Source: an uncultured Alsobacter sp. (GTDB lineage: Bacteria > Pseudomonadota > Alphaproteobacteria > Rhizobiales > Beijerinckiaceae). From it: a stretch of 64,000 bases of DNA. The DNA is taken from the NCBI RefSeq assembly GCF_945952055.1, contig NZ_CAMFHB010000008.1:1-64000 (forward strand). Reading direction: 5' to 3'. Position 1 is the first letter of the stretch. Each line of letters starts with the position of its first letter. The notes beneath the pieces are model-generated. The model was not told where the DNA came from. It ran no database searches and saw nothing but the letters and a program-made list of their open reading frames with translations. This document shows positions 22,619 through 63,373 of this stretch, piece after piece. A program made the translations under genes and the position numbers.

Positions 22619-22874
22619 GGGCGCCGCCGGTGTGCGAGGCCCCCACGGCGGCCGCCTCAGGCGGCCGCGCGACGCCCTTCGCAGGCGCGGTCCATCCCGG
22701 ATCGATCGCGCCGGCGAACGTGACGGCGCCTCCAGGGGGCAGCCTGGCGCGCCATGGGGGCGGGACGACAATCAGGGACGAAATCGGTTCAGGCAGACAA
22801 GTCGGAACGCGCCGACCGGAATCCGATCCGGCCGCGGCGGCGGATTTGCAAACCACTGATTTCCGAGAGGAAAG

Positions 22875-22924
22875 TGGCGCGAGAGACGGGGCTCGAACCC
22901 GCGACCTCCGGCGTGACAGGCCCG
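22875..22924 (-). other. 3' fragment of a tRNA-Asp(GTC) gene; putative prophage left attachment site
   Basis: Reverse complement GGGCCTGTCACGCCGGAGGTCGCGGGTTCGAGCCCCGTCTCTCGCGCCA contains the GTC anticodon loop, T-arm (GGTTCGAGCC), acceptor 3' strand and CCA; no matching 5' half (D-arm/acceptor) follows at 22925-22955. Confidence 0.8.
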
Positions 22925-57264: not shown

Positions 57265-57269
57265 GGGCG

Positions 57270-57337
57270 GCGCTTTTCTGGGGCTGGAAGGCGCTTTTTT
57301 CTGTACGTATTGCTTATTTCTGCTAGTCTGAATGTAT
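57270..57337 (+). promoter_or_regulatory. Early-region hairpin/T6/promoter module, copy 1 (divergent intergenic)
   Basis: Hairpin GCGCTTTTC-TGGGGCT-GGAAGGCGC, T6, then CTGTACGTATTGCTTATTTCTGCTAGTCTGAATGTAT. Confidence 0.7.
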
Positions 57338-57364
57338 CGAGTTCACCAGCCGCGAGAGACGCCG

Positions 57365-57670
57365 ATGACCACCCACCGCATGCTCCAGAGCGACCTGACG
57401 GCCGAAGCCCTGCGCTGCGCTCACACGTTCCAGCTCCAGACCCTGGCCCAGATGCTCCAGGGCGGCTGGGTGGTGAAGTCGGTTCGCCGGCAGGGCGGCG
57501 TCACGGTCATCACCGTCGATCACCCGCACGGCGGGTTCGGGCTGATCGCCCCGAACGGCATGTTCCAGCGCCCGCTCAAGGGCTCGAAGTCCGTCACGTG
57601 GTGCTGGAGCAAGATGGCCGATCTGGCGAAGGCCACGGTGCCGTTCTGCAACGCGCCGAAGGCCGCCTGA
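57365..57670 (+). CDS. Phage hypothetical protein (early operon)
   Basis: MTTHRMLQSDLTAEALRCAHTFQLQTLAQMLQGGWVVKSVRRQGGVTVITVDHPHGGFGLIAPNGMFQRPLKGSK... Confidence 0.6.
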   Translation: MTTHRMLQSDLTAEALRCAHTFQLQTLAQMLQGGWVVKSVRRQGGVTVITVDHPHGGFGLIAPNGMFQRPLKGSKSVTWCWSKMADLAKATVPFCNAPKAA

Positions 57671-57698
57671 TCCTCACATTCCACGGCAGGAGCCGATC

Positions 57699-57926
57699 AT
57701 GCTGACCCCCTCTCAGATCCGCTGGGCGGCCTCTCACGACTGGTTCGTTGCCGCCACGAAGGCCGGCGACGGCCGCGACGGCGTGACCGTCCTTGAGGTC
57801 GCTGTGTACGCGCCGGGGGTCACCCCTGACGACACCGTCCGGTTCACCGAGGAGGGCCGGGCCGTCACCGAGCGGACGATGGACTTCTTCGACTACCCCA
57901 GCCTGCGCGATTGGGCGGGCTACTGA
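57699..57926 (+). CDS. Phage hypothetical protein (early operon)
   Basis: MLTPSQIRWAASHDWFVAATKAGDGRDGVTVLEVAVYAPG...; RBS ggcaggag upstream. Confidence 0.65.
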   Translation: MLTPSQIRWAASHDWFVAATKAGDGRDGVTVLEVAVYAPGVTPDDTVRFTEEGRAVTERTMDFFDYPSLRDWAGY

Positions 57927-57964
57927 CCACCCCACCACCCCTCCCCTACCACGGAGACAGAGCC

Positions 57965-58504
57965 ATGAAGCTCACAGACATCGGTCGAGTGCAGCAGCTC
58001 GCCAACGCACGAAACGACGCGGTCCGACTCCATGCCGAAGTACGCGCCGGGCACGGCCTCAGGATCGCGCTAAACGGCATCTGGCTGGACACCGGCATCG
58101 TCACGCACTGCCGGCCAGTCGTGCTCGCCTACTTCCGCGAGCAGGTCGAGGTAGCCGAGCGCGGCCTGCGCGAGCTGGGCATCGAGGTCGAGCCCGCCTT
58201 GCCGCCCGCCGGGCCGATCGCCATCCAGGCGCTGCGCGAGCGCGGCTACGCAATCCAGCAGACCGGCGGCGGCTGCACGGCGTGGGTCAAGAGGATCGAC
58301 CGCGAGGACGTCGTCGTGACCGATCTCAGCGGGACGCACGAAGCCACGCCCGACGACTGGATCGTCGGCCGCTACCCGGCTGACGACTGGGGCAGCAACC
58401 GGATGTTCTGCATCACCTCCGACGAGGCGAACGCCGAGCGCGGCCTGTTTGCCACCCTCGACCTCGTCGAGAGCCGCACCGTGGCCGAACTGAGGGACAT
58501 GTGA
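57965..58504 (+). CDS. Phage hypothetical protein (early operon)
   Basis: MKLTDIGRVQQLANARNDAVRLHAEVRAGHGLRIALNGIWLDTG...; leader ccctaccacggagaca. Confidence 0.65.
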   Translation: MKLTDIGRVQQLANARNDAVRLHAEVRAGHGLRIALNGIWLDTGIVTHCRPVVLAYFREQVEVAERGLRELGIEVEPALPPAGPIAIQALRERGYAIQQTGGGCTAWVKRIDREDVVVTDLSGTHEATPDDWIVGRYPADDWGSNRMFCITSDEANAERGLFATLDLVESRTVAELRDM

Positions 58505-58821
58505 TGGCAACCGCCCTGCCCCTGCGTTGGCTGGAAGCCGACAGCGACCACGACAGCCTCGATGTGCGCTGCCACGAGCTGACCATCTGCGATGCGCTCC
58601 ACAGCGACATCGCGAACGTCCACCACGACGAGAACGCCACCGGGCCCAAGCAGACCTTCGAGGAGGCCTGCGCCTACGCCAGGTTGTTCGTGGCGGCGCC
58701 CGAGCTGCTTGCGGCGGTAAAGCTGGCGAAGGAAGAGATCGAGTACGAACTCTGCGGGCGCCGTTCACCGGCTCTCGACGCCATCGACGTCGCCCTTGCC
58801 AAGCTGGAGGGCCGGTCGTGA
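58501..58821 (+). CDS. Phage hypothetical protein (early operon)
   Basis: (M)MATALPLRWLEADSDHDSLDVRCHELTICDALHSDIANVHHDENATGPKQTFEEACAYARLFVAAPELL...; start at 58501 or 58504, overlaps neighbours. Confidence 0.65.
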   Translation: MMATALPLRWLEADSDHDSLDVRCHELTICDALHSDIANVHHDENATGPKQTFEEACAYARLFVAAPELLAAVKLAKEEIEYELCGRRSPALDAIDVALAKLEGRS

Positions 58822-59186
58822 GACAGATTACCGTCGACCAGTTCCGCGCCGAGCTCGTCGCCCAAGGCGTCAGCAGCCACGAGCACTTCGCGTTCCGCTG
58901 CCCGATGTGCGGCACGATCCAGTCCGGCCAGGATCTCATCAAGGCCGGCGCCGGCAAGACCTTCGCGGAGGTCGAACGCTACATCGCCTTCTCCTGCGTC
59001 GGTCGCTGGACCGGCGCGGGAGCGCCACGCAAGAAGCCGGACGGCAAGCCGTGCGACTGGACGCTCGGCGGGCTGTTCGCCCTGCACAAGCTGGAGGTCG
59101 TCACGCCTGAGGGCCAGACCTGCCCGCGGTTCGAGCCTGCCACGCCCGAAGAGGCGCAGGCGCACGAGAAAGGCCAGATGCCATGA
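58818..59186 (+). CDS. VVA0879-like small phage protein with CPMCG motif
   Basis: GTG start overlapping upstream TGA; RQITVDQFRAELVAQGVSSHEHFAFRCPMCGTIQSGQDLIKAGAGKTFAEVERYIAFSCVGRWTGAGAPRKKPDGKPCDWTLGGLF. Confidence 0.65.
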   Translation: MRQITVDQFRAELVAQGVSSHEHFAFRCPMCGTIQSGQDLIKAGAGKTFAEVERYIAFSCVGRWTGAGAPRKKPDGKPCDWTLGGLFALHKLEVVTPEGQTCPRFEPATPEEAQAHEKGQMP

Positions 59187-59653
59187 TCGCCTCGATCTCT
59201 TTTGACTGGTCGAGCATCGACCGCGTGAAGTCCTTCACCCGCGAGCAGTACGCCCAGCTCAGGGAAGTCCTGCCCGCGATGGACGAGTGGCAGGAGGGCA
59301 AGGAGAGCGCGCCCCCGTTCTACATGCACCGCGACACGCTCATCGATCTTGCGACCGATGGGCCCACCCTGGCCAAGCTCGGCCTGCCGTTCACCGTGAA
59401 GCGCTTCAAGGGCGCCTATTTCGCCGACAAGCGGCCCGAGGCCGGATCGACCGTCAACATCCAGATCGCGATCCCGGCCATCGGCCTGCTCGCGATGGAC
59501 GAGGTCATGGTGCTCGAGGACGCCTGCACGGACATCCTGCGGGGCCATCTGGAGGACGGCTGGCGGATCATCGCGGTCTGCCCGCCCGACGCGCAGCGCC
59601 GGCCCGACTACGTGCTCGGGCGCTCGTCGGCGGGACGGGAGGGCAAGCGATGA
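59183..59653 (+). CDS. Phage hypothetical protein (early operon)
   Basis: MIASISFDWSSIDRVKSFTREQYAQLREVLPAMDEWQEGKESAPPFYMHRDTLIDLATDGPTLAKLGLPFTVKRFKGAYF... Confidence 0.65.
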   Translation: MIASISFDWSSIDRVKSFTREQYAQLREVLPAMDEWQEGKESAPPFYMHRDTLIDLATDGPTLAKLGLPFTVKRFKGAYFADKRPEAGSTVNIQIAIPAIGLLAMDEVMVLEDACTDILRGHLEDGWRIIAVCPPDAQRRPDYVLGRSSAGREGKR

Positions 59654-59898
59654 TGCAGGGCCCCGAATGGTGGCGCGAGGCCGAGAACGATCTCGACATG
59701 CTCCACGGTCGCGGCCGGCACGCGCACCCCGGCAACGTCTGCTGGAACGACGGGATCTACGCCAGGTCGCTGGAGCAGAAGTGGCACATGCGGCTCCCCG
59801 ACCTGGAGAAGCGGATCGCGGACGCGAAGATCCGGCCCGCGCTCGACGACCCCGACCTGGACGCGAAGGTCCAGGCCTTCGTCGAAGGCCGGTCCTGA
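59650..59898 (+). CDS. Phage hypothetical protein (early operon)
   Basis: MMQGPEWWREAENDLDMLHGRGRHAHPGNVCWNDGIYARSLEQKWHMRLPDLEKRIADAKIRPALDDPDLDAKVQAFVEGRS. Confidence 0.6.
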   Translation: MMQGPEWWREAENDLDMLHGRGRHAHPGNVCWNDGIYARSLEQKWHMRLPDLEKRIADAKIRPALDDPDLDAKVQAFVEGRS

Positions 59899-59903
59899 CA
59901 GCG

Positions 59904-59978
59904 AGGCGGCGCGATTTTCATCGTGCCGCCTTTGCTTTTTTCTGTACGTCTCGCTTATTTCTGGTAGATTGAAGGCAT
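59904..59978 (+). promoter_or_regulatory. Hairpin/T6/promoter module, copy 2
   Basis: 12-bp stem AGGCGGCGCGAT-TTTC-ATCGTGCCGCCT, then ttgCTTTTTTCTGTACGTCTCGCTTATTTCTGGTAGATTGAAGGCAT. Confidence 0.75.
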
Positions 59979-60005
59979 CGGATTTCCCTACCACGGAGAC
60001 GAGCG

Positions 60006-60329
60006 ATGACCCACCCCACCTTCACCTTCCTGACCGAAACCGGCCGCTACGACCGCGCGGCGATCATGCGTGCCGCATGGGCGCGGGTGAAGGCCGCCCC
60101 GAACAACAACCGGGCCCGGCGCCTGTCGATGGCCCTGGGTCTGATCTGGGCGCAGGCGAAGGACCAGCGCGAGCAGTTCGGCCTCAACGCGGCCGAGCGC
60201 GAGCTGCACGACGCCCGCACCGCGCTGGCGGCAGCCGACCTCATGCACGACAGCACCCGCGACTGGCGCGCTGCCCGCTCGGCCGCGGAGGCCCGGATCG
60301 CGGCCCTGAGCGCCCCAAAGCAGGGCTGA
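60006..60329 (+). CDS. Phage hypothetical protein (early operon)
   Basis: MTHPTFTFLTETGRYDRAAIMRAAWARVKAAPNNNRARRLSMALGLIWAQAKDQREQ...; leader ccctaccacggagac. Confidence 0.65.
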   Translation: MTHPTFTFLTETGRYDRAAIMRAAWARVKAAPNNNRARRLSMALGLIWAQAKDQREQFGLNAAERELHDARTALAAADLMHDSTRDWRAARSAAEARIAALSAPKQG

Positions 60330-60345
60330 TGACTGCTTTTTTCTG
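60319..60345 (+). promoter_or_regulatory. Partial hairpin/T6/CTG module, copy 3 (lacks the downstream promoter-like part)
   Basis: AGCAG-ggctgatga-CTGCT TTTTT CTG, then directly caacaggagacgaccgATG. Confidence 0.5.
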
Positions 60346-60361
60346 CAACAGGAGACGACCG

Positions 60362-60502
60362 ATGTTCGTGACCTACTCCGGTACCCGCGACGGGCGCCAT
60401 TGGGGCCGCTGGCTCGACGACCTCTGGATGGCCTCGGCCAGCCACCCGGTGTCCAGCTGCTGCTGGATGATCCCCGGCACCGCCGACCCGAACGAGGACT
60501 GA
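60362..60502 (+). CDS. Small phage protein (46 aa)
   Basis: MFVTYSGTRDGRHWGRWLDDLWMASASHPVSSCCWMIPGTADPNED; RBS aggagac. Confidence 0.5.
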   Translation: MFVTYSGTRDGRHWGRWLDDLWMASASHPVSSCCWMIPGTADPNED

Positions 60503-60588
60503 GCGCGCTTGCCGCCCTCCATCGGGTCGCTCCGCGCGGCCCGATCCGGGGATGCACCTGCGCTCCCGCCCCTCCACAGGAGAGATCC

Positions 60589-62553
60589 ATGATCAAGACC
60601 GCGAATGCCAAACCGGCGCCGAAGGCGAAGGCCAAGCCGCCGAAGGTCGACAAGCCGAAGGTCGAATTCACTCCGGCGCCGACCGGGCCGACCACCCTGC
60701 CGCTCTGGCAGATCCGGTCGGGCCACGACGACAACGAAGTCACGATCAACGTCCGCCAGATCGGGCGCGGCGAGGGCATCGCCGGCCTTGCGGCCAGCAT
60801 CGAGACCCACGGCCTCATCCAGCCGCTCCTGGTGCGCCAGCTCGCGCACGAGAACTTCCAGGTCGTGGACGGCAACCGCCGCTTCACCGCGCTGCTCGAC
60901 ATGCGCTCGCGCGACGTGATCCCTCACGACTTCCCCGTGCCGGTGCTGGTCCGCGACCTGAGCGACGAGTACGCCCGCGAACGGTCGCTGGCCGCCAACG
61001 TGGTGCGTCTCCAGATGCACGGCGCCGACGAGGTCGAGGCCTTCCTGCGCCTGGCCCAGCAGGGCTTGAACACGGCCGAGATCGCCAACCGGTTCGGCAT
61101 CCTTGAGAGCCAGGTGGTCCAGCGCCTCGCGCTGGCCAGCGTGGCCCCCGAGGTCATGGCGGCATGGCGCGCCGGCCAGATCACGCTGGAGCACGTCAAG
61201 GCCTTCACCCTGCGCGACGACCACGACCGGCACCGAGAGCTGCTCGAAACCGTGCTCAAGTCCCACAAGACCGCGTGGAGCTACGAGCCACGCTGGATCC
61301 GCGAGCAGATCACCGACGAGGCCGTGCCCACGACCGACCGGCGCGTGCGCATGATCGGCGGCATCGAGGTCTACACCGAGGCCGGCGGCACGATCACCTC
61401 CGACCTGTTCGGCGACAAGGCCTGGATCGAGGACGTGGCGCTGCTCGACAAGCTGGCCGACCAGAAGATCGCGGCCGTGATCGCCGAAGTCCGCGCCGAA
61501 GGCTGGAAAGAGGTCCTGACGGACCATCCGAGCTGGTGGTGGAGCCGCGACCGGATCAAGTCGTCCGAGGCGCCCCCGGAACCGGAAGAGCTGGTAACCC
61601 TGCGCGACGAGGTCCAGAAGCTCGAAGACGAGTGCGAAGGCTTCTACCAGGACGAAGGCGTCGAGACGGACGACGACGGCGATCCGATCCTCACCCCCGA
61701 GCAAAAGGCGCTCGAGGACAAGATCCAGCAGCTCCAGATGCGGATCCGCACGCTGGAGGCGGAGCACGCCAAGGCAACGGCCGAGGTGCAGTTCACGGCG
61801 GCCGACAAGGCCAGCGCGATGGCGTGCGTCAAGGTCGGCTACAACGGCGAGATCGAGATCGAACGCGGGTTCCGCGAGCCGGCGCCCCGCGAGGGCGACA
61901 GCGGTGGTTTCGGCAGCAAGCCGAAGGTCGCGCCCGAGGAGGCCGATCTCAGCCAGGCCATGCGTGACGACCTCCAGCGCGTCATGACCAACGCCTTGCA
62001 GCACGCGGCGCTCGACAACCAGCGCGTCACGCTGGCGATGCTGGCGGCCACCATGGCCCACAAGGCCCATTCGCTGGGCGGCGGCACGCAGCCGATGCGC
62101 ATCACGCTGACGCAGCCGGCAAACAGCCAGGACGCCGGGATCGTGGAGAAGCGGTCGGCACTGCCGCAGGGCAGCTACGCCGAGCTGCTGGAGATGTTCC
62201 TGTCGGGCTCGCCGAAGGCCTCGATCGACGCGATCGCCGCGTGCGCCGCGCTCGTCATCGATGTGACCGGGATCACCTCGACATGGCAGGGCGCGCTGCA
62301 GGACGCGGACGTGAAGGCGGTGCGCAACGCGCTCGCGCCCGACGTCCGCAAGACCTGGACCCCGACCGTGGAGAACTTCTTCGGCCGCGTCGGCAAGTCG
62401 GTCATCCTCGACGCGATCAAGGACATGGGCGGGACCGCGGACGCGAGCGGCAAGAAGGCCGACCTCGCCGCCACGGCCGCCGCGCTGGCGGCCGAGAGCA
62501 ACTGGCTCCCGCCGGCCCTGCGGACCTCGACCTACGCCGGCCCGAAGGCCTGA
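60589..62553 (+). CDS. ParB/KorB-like nuclease-domain protein
   Basis: GIAGLAASIETHGLIQPLLVRQLAHENFQVVDGNRRFTALLDM...LQMHGADEVEAFLRLAQQGLNTAEIANRFGILESQVVQRLALASVAPEVMAAWRAGQITLEHVKAFTL (ParB domain plus HTH). Confidence 0.88.
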   Translation: MIKTANAKPAPKAKAKPPKVDKPKVEFTPAPTGPTTLPLWQIRSGHDDNEVTINVRQIGRGEGIAGLAASIETHGLIQPLLVRQLAHENFQVVDGNRRFTALLDMRSRDVIPHDFPVPVLVRDLSDEYARERSLAANVVRLQMHGADEVEAFLRLAQQGLNTAEIANRFGILESQVVQRLALASVAPEVMAAWRAGQITLEHVKAFTLRDDHDRHRELLETVLKSHKTAWSYEPRWIREQITDEAVPTTDRRVRMIGGIEVYTEAGGTITSDLFGDKAWIEDVALLDKLADQKIAAVIAEVRAEGWKEVLTDHPSWWWSRDRIKSSEAPPEPEELVTLRDEVQKLEDECEGFYQDEGVETDDDGDPILTPEQKALEDKIQQLQMRIRTLEAEHAKATAEVQFTAADKASAMACVKVGYNGEIEIERGFREPAPREGDSGGFGSKPKVAPEEADLSQAMRDDLQRVMTNALQHAALDNQRVTLAMLAATMAHKAHSLGGGTQPMRITLTQPANSQDAGIVEKRSALPQGSYAELLEMFLSGSPKASIDAIAACAALVIDVTGITSTWQGALQDADVKAVRNALAPDVRKTWTPTVENFFGRVGKSVILDAIKDMGGTADASGKKADLAATAAALAAESNWLPPALRTSTYAGPKA

Positions 62554-62563
62554 ACGACCCGGC

Positions 62564-62636
62564 GGGGCGGCCATAACCGCCCCTCCAGACTGCTTTTTTC
62601 TGTACGTCCCCAGCCACTTCGGCGAGACTGAATACT
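62564..62636 (+). promoter_or_regulatory. Hairpin/T6/promoter module, copy 4
   Basis: GGGGCGG-ccataa-CCGCCCC hairpin, then gactgCTTTTTTCTGTACGTCCCCAGCCACTTCGGCGAGACTGAATACTGCCC. Confidence 0.65.
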
Positions 62637-62667
62637 GCCCTAAACCCCTGCCACAGGAGAGAATATC

Positions 62668-63006
62668 ATGGCCAGCATTGGCGTGAACGTTCACGGCCCG
62701 CGCTTCTATTTGAGCAGCGCGATGGAGCACAACAGCGGCACCGTCTCGGTGTGCATCAAGGTCTTTGAAGAGGATAAGCCCGGGCGCGAGCTTCTGGACC
62801 TCGGCCTGTTCGGGCGGACCCTGATCGACATCCAGAAGATCCAGCGGCTGGCAGAAGCCATCCACGCGATCTGGGGTGACAACCCGGCGCCAGGCTGCGC
62901 GCGGGACGCCCCCAACACGTTCGCGGTCCTGGCCCGCAACACCGCGCCGCGCGGGTGGGGCGAGGCGGGCGGCCCGACCGACCAGATCCACGACGCGGCG
63001 GAGTGA
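62668..63006 (+). CDS. Phage hypothetical protein (early operon)
   Basis: MASIGVNVHGPRFYLSSAMEHNSGTVSVCIKVFEEDKPGRELLDLGLFGRTLIDIQKIQRLAEAIHAIW...; leader ctgccacaggagag. Confidence 0.65.
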   Translation: MASIGVNVHGPRFYLSSAMEHNSGTVSVCIKVFEEDKPGRELLDLGLFGRTLIDIQKIQRLAEAIHAIWGDNPAPGCARDAPNTFAVLARNTAPRGWGEAGGPTDQIHDAAE

Positions 63007-63010
63007 GGAG

Positions 63011-63238
63011 ATGAGCGGATGCCCACCCTTCCCCACCGGCAACGATGGCGCAGACCGGTTCCGGATCGCCGTCGAGGAGACGCGCCACGTCGTCTACGAG
63101 ATCGAAGCCGACAGCGCGGATGCCGCGCTCCGCGCATTCATCGAGTGCGGCGCTGGTCAAGAGGTGTCCAGCACAGTCCTGACAGTGTCGTTGCGGGCGG
63201 ACCCGAAGCGGACCCAGGACATCCCCGAGATCGCCTAG
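63011..63238 (+). CDS. Phage hypothetical protein (early operon)
   Basis: MSGCPPFPTGNDGADRFRIAVEETRHVVYEIEADSADAALRAFIECGAGQEVSSTVLTVSLRADPKRTQDIPEIA. Confidence 0.6.
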   Translation: MSGCPPFPTGNDGADRFRIAVEETRHVVYEIEADSADAALRAFIECGAGQEVSSTVLTVSLRADPKRTQDIPEIA

Positions 63239-63266
63239 CCGTGTCTTGCGTATAGGCGAAGTCGAG

Positions 63267-63347
63267 AGCAGTCACAGCGGGAATTATTCTTGTGCTGTGA
63301 CTGCTTTTTTCTGTACGTATCGCTTAATTCTGGTAGCCTGAATGTGT
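63267..63347 (+). promoter_or_regulatory. Hairpin/T6/promoter module, copy 5
   Basis: Perfect 12-bp stem AGCAGTCACAGC...GCTGTGACTGCT TTTTT, then CTGTACGTATCGCTTAATTCTGGTAGCCTGAATGTGTT. Confidence 0.8.
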
Positions 63348-63373
63348 TGGATCCCTACCACAGGAACACCACC

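Follow-up and report, generated by a model that had tools for sequence, protein, structure and literature searches.

A T-rich 11-mer dispersed through the early region of an alphaproteobacterial prophage is a candidate operator of its CI-like repressor

Results

The T-rich 11-mer GCTTTTTTCTG occurs nine times in a 6.62-Mb genome and never outside a single prophage, and we propose that it is the operator of that prophage's CI-like repressor, dispersed among the early genes. Judged on sequence and on the comparison of related prophages, we give this reading a probability of about 0.72. The whole-genome exact search placed all nine copies on the + strand of contig C8, from 57,293 to 79,595, and a reversed-pattern control had no matches in the genome. 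All nine are intergenic and precede the start of a rightward gene; the genes downstream include those for ParB-like, DUF6011 and DUF2786 proteins and for the sliding clamp. Copies 1-5 lie in the window, by which we mean the whole 64,000-nt stretch that was analysed (G000:C8:1-64000). The reading was continued beyond its end, where copies 6-9 follow (C8:65693, 67435, 76221 and 79585, all +). A sequence-only reading of the window had described a set of five sites sharing CTTTTTTCTG. These five are exact (57294, 59935, 60336, 62593 and 63304, all +), but they belong to the larger set of nine.

Allowing up to two mismatches and applying a weight matrix added seven weaker copies (57270, 57312, 59953, 63322, 67394, 75193 and 79614), each at or near an exact copy or at the repressor gene. 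A matrix scan of 120 kb returned 15 sites of at least 16.5 bits, with the next best at 13.1 bits, and CTTTTTTCTG with at most one mismatch gave 8 matches where 0.56 were expected. The 16-mer GCTTTTTTCTGTACGT is identical in five copies, and outside the core the sequence of different copies is unrelated. A 15-mer of the repeat was absent from 297 other genomes of the family, and the full pattern CTTTTTTCTGTACGTN{15,18}AGNNTGA from the viral contigs. The single match of this pattern among GTDB genomes (a Chitinophagales MAG) was taken as chance, and so were the matches of an exact 14-mer in viral contigs (at least 120, about one per contig).

The prophage spans C8:22,866-88,086 (about 65.2 kb). 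It is bounded by a 57-bp exact direct repeat (22866-22922 and 88030-88086) that overlaps tRNA-Asp (gtc); the two repeats are probably attL and attR, in which case about two thirds of the prophage, its left part, would fall within the window. Late genes, among them terminase and a tail-sheath-like protein, run leftward, and the early genes begin at 57.3 kb and are oriented rightward. At 86.7-88.0 kb is an integrase-like gene with no more than a weak Pfam match. The CI-like repressor gene (C8:75382-76152) has HTH_31 and HTH_3 matches and an S24-like domain just below its cut-off, and no homologue of the repressor was found in phages or viral contigs. The 11-mer flanks this gene on both sides: a near copy, TTGCTATTTTCTGCAAG, lies at 75193 in the divergent gap upstream, and the exact copy at 76221 is just downstream. 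In one alignment, the lysine of the VKRL segment in the S24-like domain of a related prophage repressor (G051, below) is an arginine here (TIRRL). By analogy with LexA and CI, the catalytic lysine may be lost, and induction may not proceed by self-cleavage.

Within the window, copies 1, 2, 4 and 5 were found by both search and matrix (57293..57303, 59934..59944, 62592..62602 and 63303..63313, all +) and are proposed as operators, that of copy 1 over the -35 region. Most copies are followed by a promoter-like box, as the sequence-only reading had said. Four of its five sites continue as CTGTACGT, and in copies 1, 2, 4, 5 and 6 CTGTAC is followed at 17 or 18 bp by TAGNNT or GAGACT. By sequence inspection, the putative promoter of copy 1 (57301..57329, +) consists of CTGTAC (57301-57306), a 17-bp spacer and the extended -10 TGC-TAGTCT (57324-57329). 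That of copy 2 (59942..59970, +) ends in TGG-TAGATT and that of copy 5 (63311..63339, +) in TGG-TAGCCT, both with CTGTAC and a 17-bp spacer. At copy 4 (62600..62629, +) the spacer is 18 bp and GAGACT would be a weak -10 with no TG. The extended form TGN-TAGNNT is thus present in copies 1, 2, 5 and 6, with TGC-TATTCT in copy 7. A generic sigma-70 scan of 50-64 kb returned no matches, and promoter activity at most copies is what the boxes suggest. Copy 3 (60335..60345, +; found by search) is the only exact copy lacking such a box. A ribosome-binding site and an ATG (60362) come directly after it, and its right half, TTCTGCAA, is complete.

In copies 1, 2 and 5 a second operator-like copy lies 19 bp past the first. 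The scan identified these proposed second operators adjoining the -10 box as GCTTATTTCTG at 57312..57322 (1b, +, one mismatch) and at 59953..59963 (2b, +), and as GCTTAATTCTG at 63322..63332 (5b, +, two mismatches). In copies 7 and 8 the exact 11-mer itself is directly ahead of TATTCT or TAGATT. The T-run had been read as primarily the tail of a terminator, and this placement against the -10 box, at one or two mismatches in 1, 2 and 5, does not support that.

The hairpins were the other half of the earlier description, which gave all sites one layout. For each copy we compared the best hairpin ending at the T-run with 60 dinucleotide shuffles. A clear hairpin abuts the T-run in two of the nine copies. 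The one before copy 2 (59900..59936, +; -26.1 kcal/mol) and the one before copy 5 (63267..63305, +; -24.9 kcal/mol, 12/12 pairs) were matched by 0/60 shuffles, and the strong stems reported at 59904 and 63267 are real. The former probably terminates the gene that ends at 59898, and the latter the gene upstream. Copy 1, in a divergent gap, is marginal: its hairpin (57269..57295, +; arms GGCGCTTTTC/GGAAGGCGCT, three G-U pairs) was equalled in stability by 3/60 shuffles, and it overlaps a degenerate operator copy, GCGCTTTTCTG, found at 57270-57280 (+) by the mismatch and matrix scan. At copies 3, 4, 6, 7, 8 and 9 the hairpin at the T-run is no better than in shuffles (39/60 as good for copy 3). 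The hairpin search placed the copy 4 stem, GGGGCGG/CCGCCCC (62564..62583, +), so that it ends 10 nt ahead of the T-run; at copies 6 and 9 there is no such hairpin. Inspection by eye showed a perfect 10-bp stem at copy 7, which stops six bases sooner and ahead of a preceding T-run, and a terminator at copy 8 that carries its own separate T6.

Copies 2 and 5 clearly show the arrangement of an intrinsic terminator, a stable hairpin directly followed by a U-run. Copies 7 and 8 probably do, with the earlier T-run, and copies 3, 4, 6 and 9 do not. Each strong hairpin comes after a gene end, and those before copies 2, 5, 7 and 8 resemble normal terminators for the genes ahead of them. Since the T-run is also conserved in copies that no hairpin adjoins, the simplest reading would be that terminators happen to abut it. 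It had also been suggested that each unit would terminate one transcript and initiate the following one, which is plausible at copies 2, 5, 7 and 8, all with a terminator-like hairpin. The proposed selection on structure does not follow, since stems of unrelated sequence cannot reveal covariation. Nor is there support for a hairpin that travels with the promoter, given the marginal hairpin of copy 1 and the lack of any at copies 6 and 9.

Comparison with relatives connects the motif to the repressor. Two collinear prophages were reached via terminase: G051, of the same genus (terminase 66-67%), and G112, of the same family. The 11-mer is absent from both. In G051, whose repressor is 43% identical with a near-identical HTH, TGCAWWATTCTGT occurs three times in a 5.1-Mb genome, always in the prophage and on one strand: one copy directly behind the repressor gene, one ahead of the sliding-clamp gene and one ahead of the DUF2786 operon. 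After each comes a further site, containing TTCTGCAA or TTCTGCAC, and the half-site TTCTGCAA is common to G051 and the prophage studied here. In G112 the repressor HTH differs, and the repeat is GATGTANNNTTACATCA, with six exact copies in a 7.3-Mb genome, all in the prophage; an unsupervised palindrome count recovered the same six. Two of them flank the HTH repressor gene, others precede the DUF6011 and DUF2786 orthologues, and several have a -10-like box in their centre.

Across these three phages, which are all that the comparison holds, the motif changes with the repressor HTH: G051 has a similar HTH and shares TTCTGCAA, and in G112 both differ. This match between motif and HTH is why we assign the motif to the repressor. 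The orthologues with a module at the same place are DUF6011, DUF2786, the sliding clamp and the gene after the repressor. As a separate observation, the gene for the sliding clamp, DNA polymerase III beta (C8:79661-80764), lies behind copy 9, and its G051 counterpart likewise lies behind an operator-like site. Four further terminase relatives (L226-L229) had no clear repeated palindrome. Relatives found via a 654-aa ParB-like protein and a methyltransferase were set aside as too distant and without such a repeat; Rhizobium phage RHph_TM3_3_3 has only the methyltransferase in common. In one viral contig with a methyltransferase relative, a 12-bp unit resembling GTGGCGCTGTCC is repeated in tandem about 26 times (L145:3688-4143).

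Discussion

We favor a dispersed repressor regulon. The wider operator, TTGCTTTTTTCTGYA, would be an imperfect dyad of the form TTGC-N4-TTCTGYA(A), and GCTTTTTTCTGTACG is a candidate duplex for repressor binding. Copies over the -35 region, often repeated next to the -10 box, would cover about seven or eight early promoters within 22 kb. Repressor in the lysogen would occupy all copies and keep the scattered early operons shut, and upon induction these operons would fire together. The copy at 60335, which has no promoter, could act like a stoperator and prevent read-through. At copies 2 and 5 the U-run of the upstream terminator would be the operator's own T-run. What is seen agrees with such a plan: a single short site is present many times, within the phage only, at putative early promoters and at the repressor gene, with the same layout in G112 and the downstream site in G051.

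Several observations weigh against the repressor reading. The operators of HTH/S24 repressors are usually palindromes, and this motif is strikingly asymmetric for such a protein. The TACG that flanks copies 1, 2, 4, 5 and 6 is more conserved than the dyad would require, so that some of this conservation may belong to the promoter. The G112 gap before the ParB gene contains no palindrome, and the leftward operon at 68-75 kb has just one site, the shared one at 75193. The motif comparison itself covers three phages.

An extension of the repressor reading gives the T-run two roles at once, as RNA terminator tail and as DNA operator. Repressor bound in the lysogen would then also be a roadblock, reinforcing termination and shielding each early unit from read-through, and 60335 would be only a stop. 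We regard this extension as doubtful.

A different factor might instead bind the 11-mer to switch the early genes on: a phage activator, an altered sigma factor or RNA polymerase for which the 11-mer is the site, or an unusual -35 element. The invariance of the 16-mer in five copies would suit such a factor, as would CTGTAC, which matches TTGACA poorly and is separated from the -10 box by 17-18 bp. CTGTAC is missing from copies 3, 7 and 8, though, and copies flank the repressor gene while the motif of the relatives follows the repressor HTH, all of which makes such a factor improbable.

The sequence-only reading had suggested a mobile or amplified cassette that brings small genes into the phage ("moron" units). 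The PeSL of T4-type phages, attributed to Arbiol et al. 2010, is reportedly an early promoter adjoining a stem-loop, placed between small genes. A cassette of this kind would end and start transcripts and would itself move or be copied with small genes, and it accounts for the strong hairpins before copies 2, 5, 7 and 8 and for the promoter-like boxes after most copies. It does not account for copies 1, 3, 4, 6 and 9, where the hairpin is missing, weak or out of place, nor for an 11-mer adjoining the -10 box with no hairpin (7, 8, 1b, 2b and 5b). The unrelated sequence outside the core indicates no recent copying. Orthologous genes in G051 and G112, two relatives only, carry the module at the same places although they lack this motif, and the repeat diverges with repressor type while the sites stay with the genes. 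We therefore think a mobile cassette quite improbable. The likeness to PeSL (as cited in PMC4503421) is in an early promoter adjoining a stem-loop between small genes. The differences are that the stem-loop is no constant part here (two of nine clear, one marginal, where PeSL would have a stem-loop terminator at every promoter copy), that the two relatives give no sign of shuffling, and that this is a temperate phage with a repressor-linked motif.

An RNA-level signal, a boxA-like antitermination site read in upstream transcripts, has very little to commend it: all copies are in the sense orientation and TGCTTTTTT loosely resembles boxA, TGCTCTTTA, but most copies are upstream of or inside their own promoter and so not in the transcript to be served, an Rfam search gave no family matches, and in the relatives the same position is occupied by a DNA palindrome.

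The operators of phage 434 are clustered at two promoters. The aligned repressors match the HTH of 434 CI in sequence (PDB 1per and 2or1), whereas the operator-like sites here are dispersed. A parallel in plan is phage P1, with 22 dispersed asymmetric 17-bp C1 operators, ATTGCTCTAATAAATTT (PMC8546580). In both, one repressor would serve many asymmetric sites spread across the phage genome at early promoters, if our assignment of the repressor is right. The prophage differs from P1 in the sequence of the site, in its HTH and S24-like repressor, in the imperfect dyad and in T-runs that are in some cases shared with a terminator. Cluster A mycobacteriophages such as L5 and Bxb1 have 20-30 sites in one orientation (PMC6550527, PMC9283540). 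The present sites resemble theirs in being short, asymmetric and intergenic, in keeping one orientation to transcription, and in a motif that diverges with the repressor. Most L5 sites are away from promoters, as stoperators that would block elongation, whereas most sites here are at promoters and only 60335 is without a promoter-like box; there are also fewer of them (about 15), and none in the late operon.

If the repressor reading is right, a group of temperate phages, presumably of alphaproteobacteria, uses one CI-like repressor over dispersed early promoters, which is an arrangement described mainly in P1 and the mycobacteriophages. The three relatives, with matching and different repressors, would be a natural test of co-change between repressor and operator at many sites. 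By analogy, the system may also suggest who regulates multi-copy promoter elements such as ESAS. In Adephagia the repressor region lacks the ESAS-type element, which has no known regulator (PMC3203893, PMC11373665), unlike the sites here, which flank the repressor gene and point to its product.

The cluster K SAS/ESAS system (PMC3203893, PMC11373665) pairs a multi-copy intergenic promoter-like element with a separate conserved pre-start sequence, and the prophage has a counterpart to the latter. The sequence CCCTACCAC has 10 exact copies in the right arm, all + (C8:57944, 59986, 63353, 65749, 67481, 68636, 76695, 79641, 83065 and 84138 by exact search), nine of them just before an ATG. Two examples are 59986..59994, ahead of ATG 60006, and 63353..63361, ahead of ATG 63374 of the DUF6011 gene. 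It occurs with or without the operator module, and G112 has four copies on the early strand. Like SAS/ESAS it is short, conserved before start codons, limited to the sense strand and rare in the host; in sequence it is unlike GGGATAGGAGCCC, the cluster K element. Elsewhere in the right arm, a perfect 12-bp palindrome, GCAGAATTCTGC, lies between convergent genes at C8:68766-68777 and corresponds to the proposed operator half-site made symmetric.
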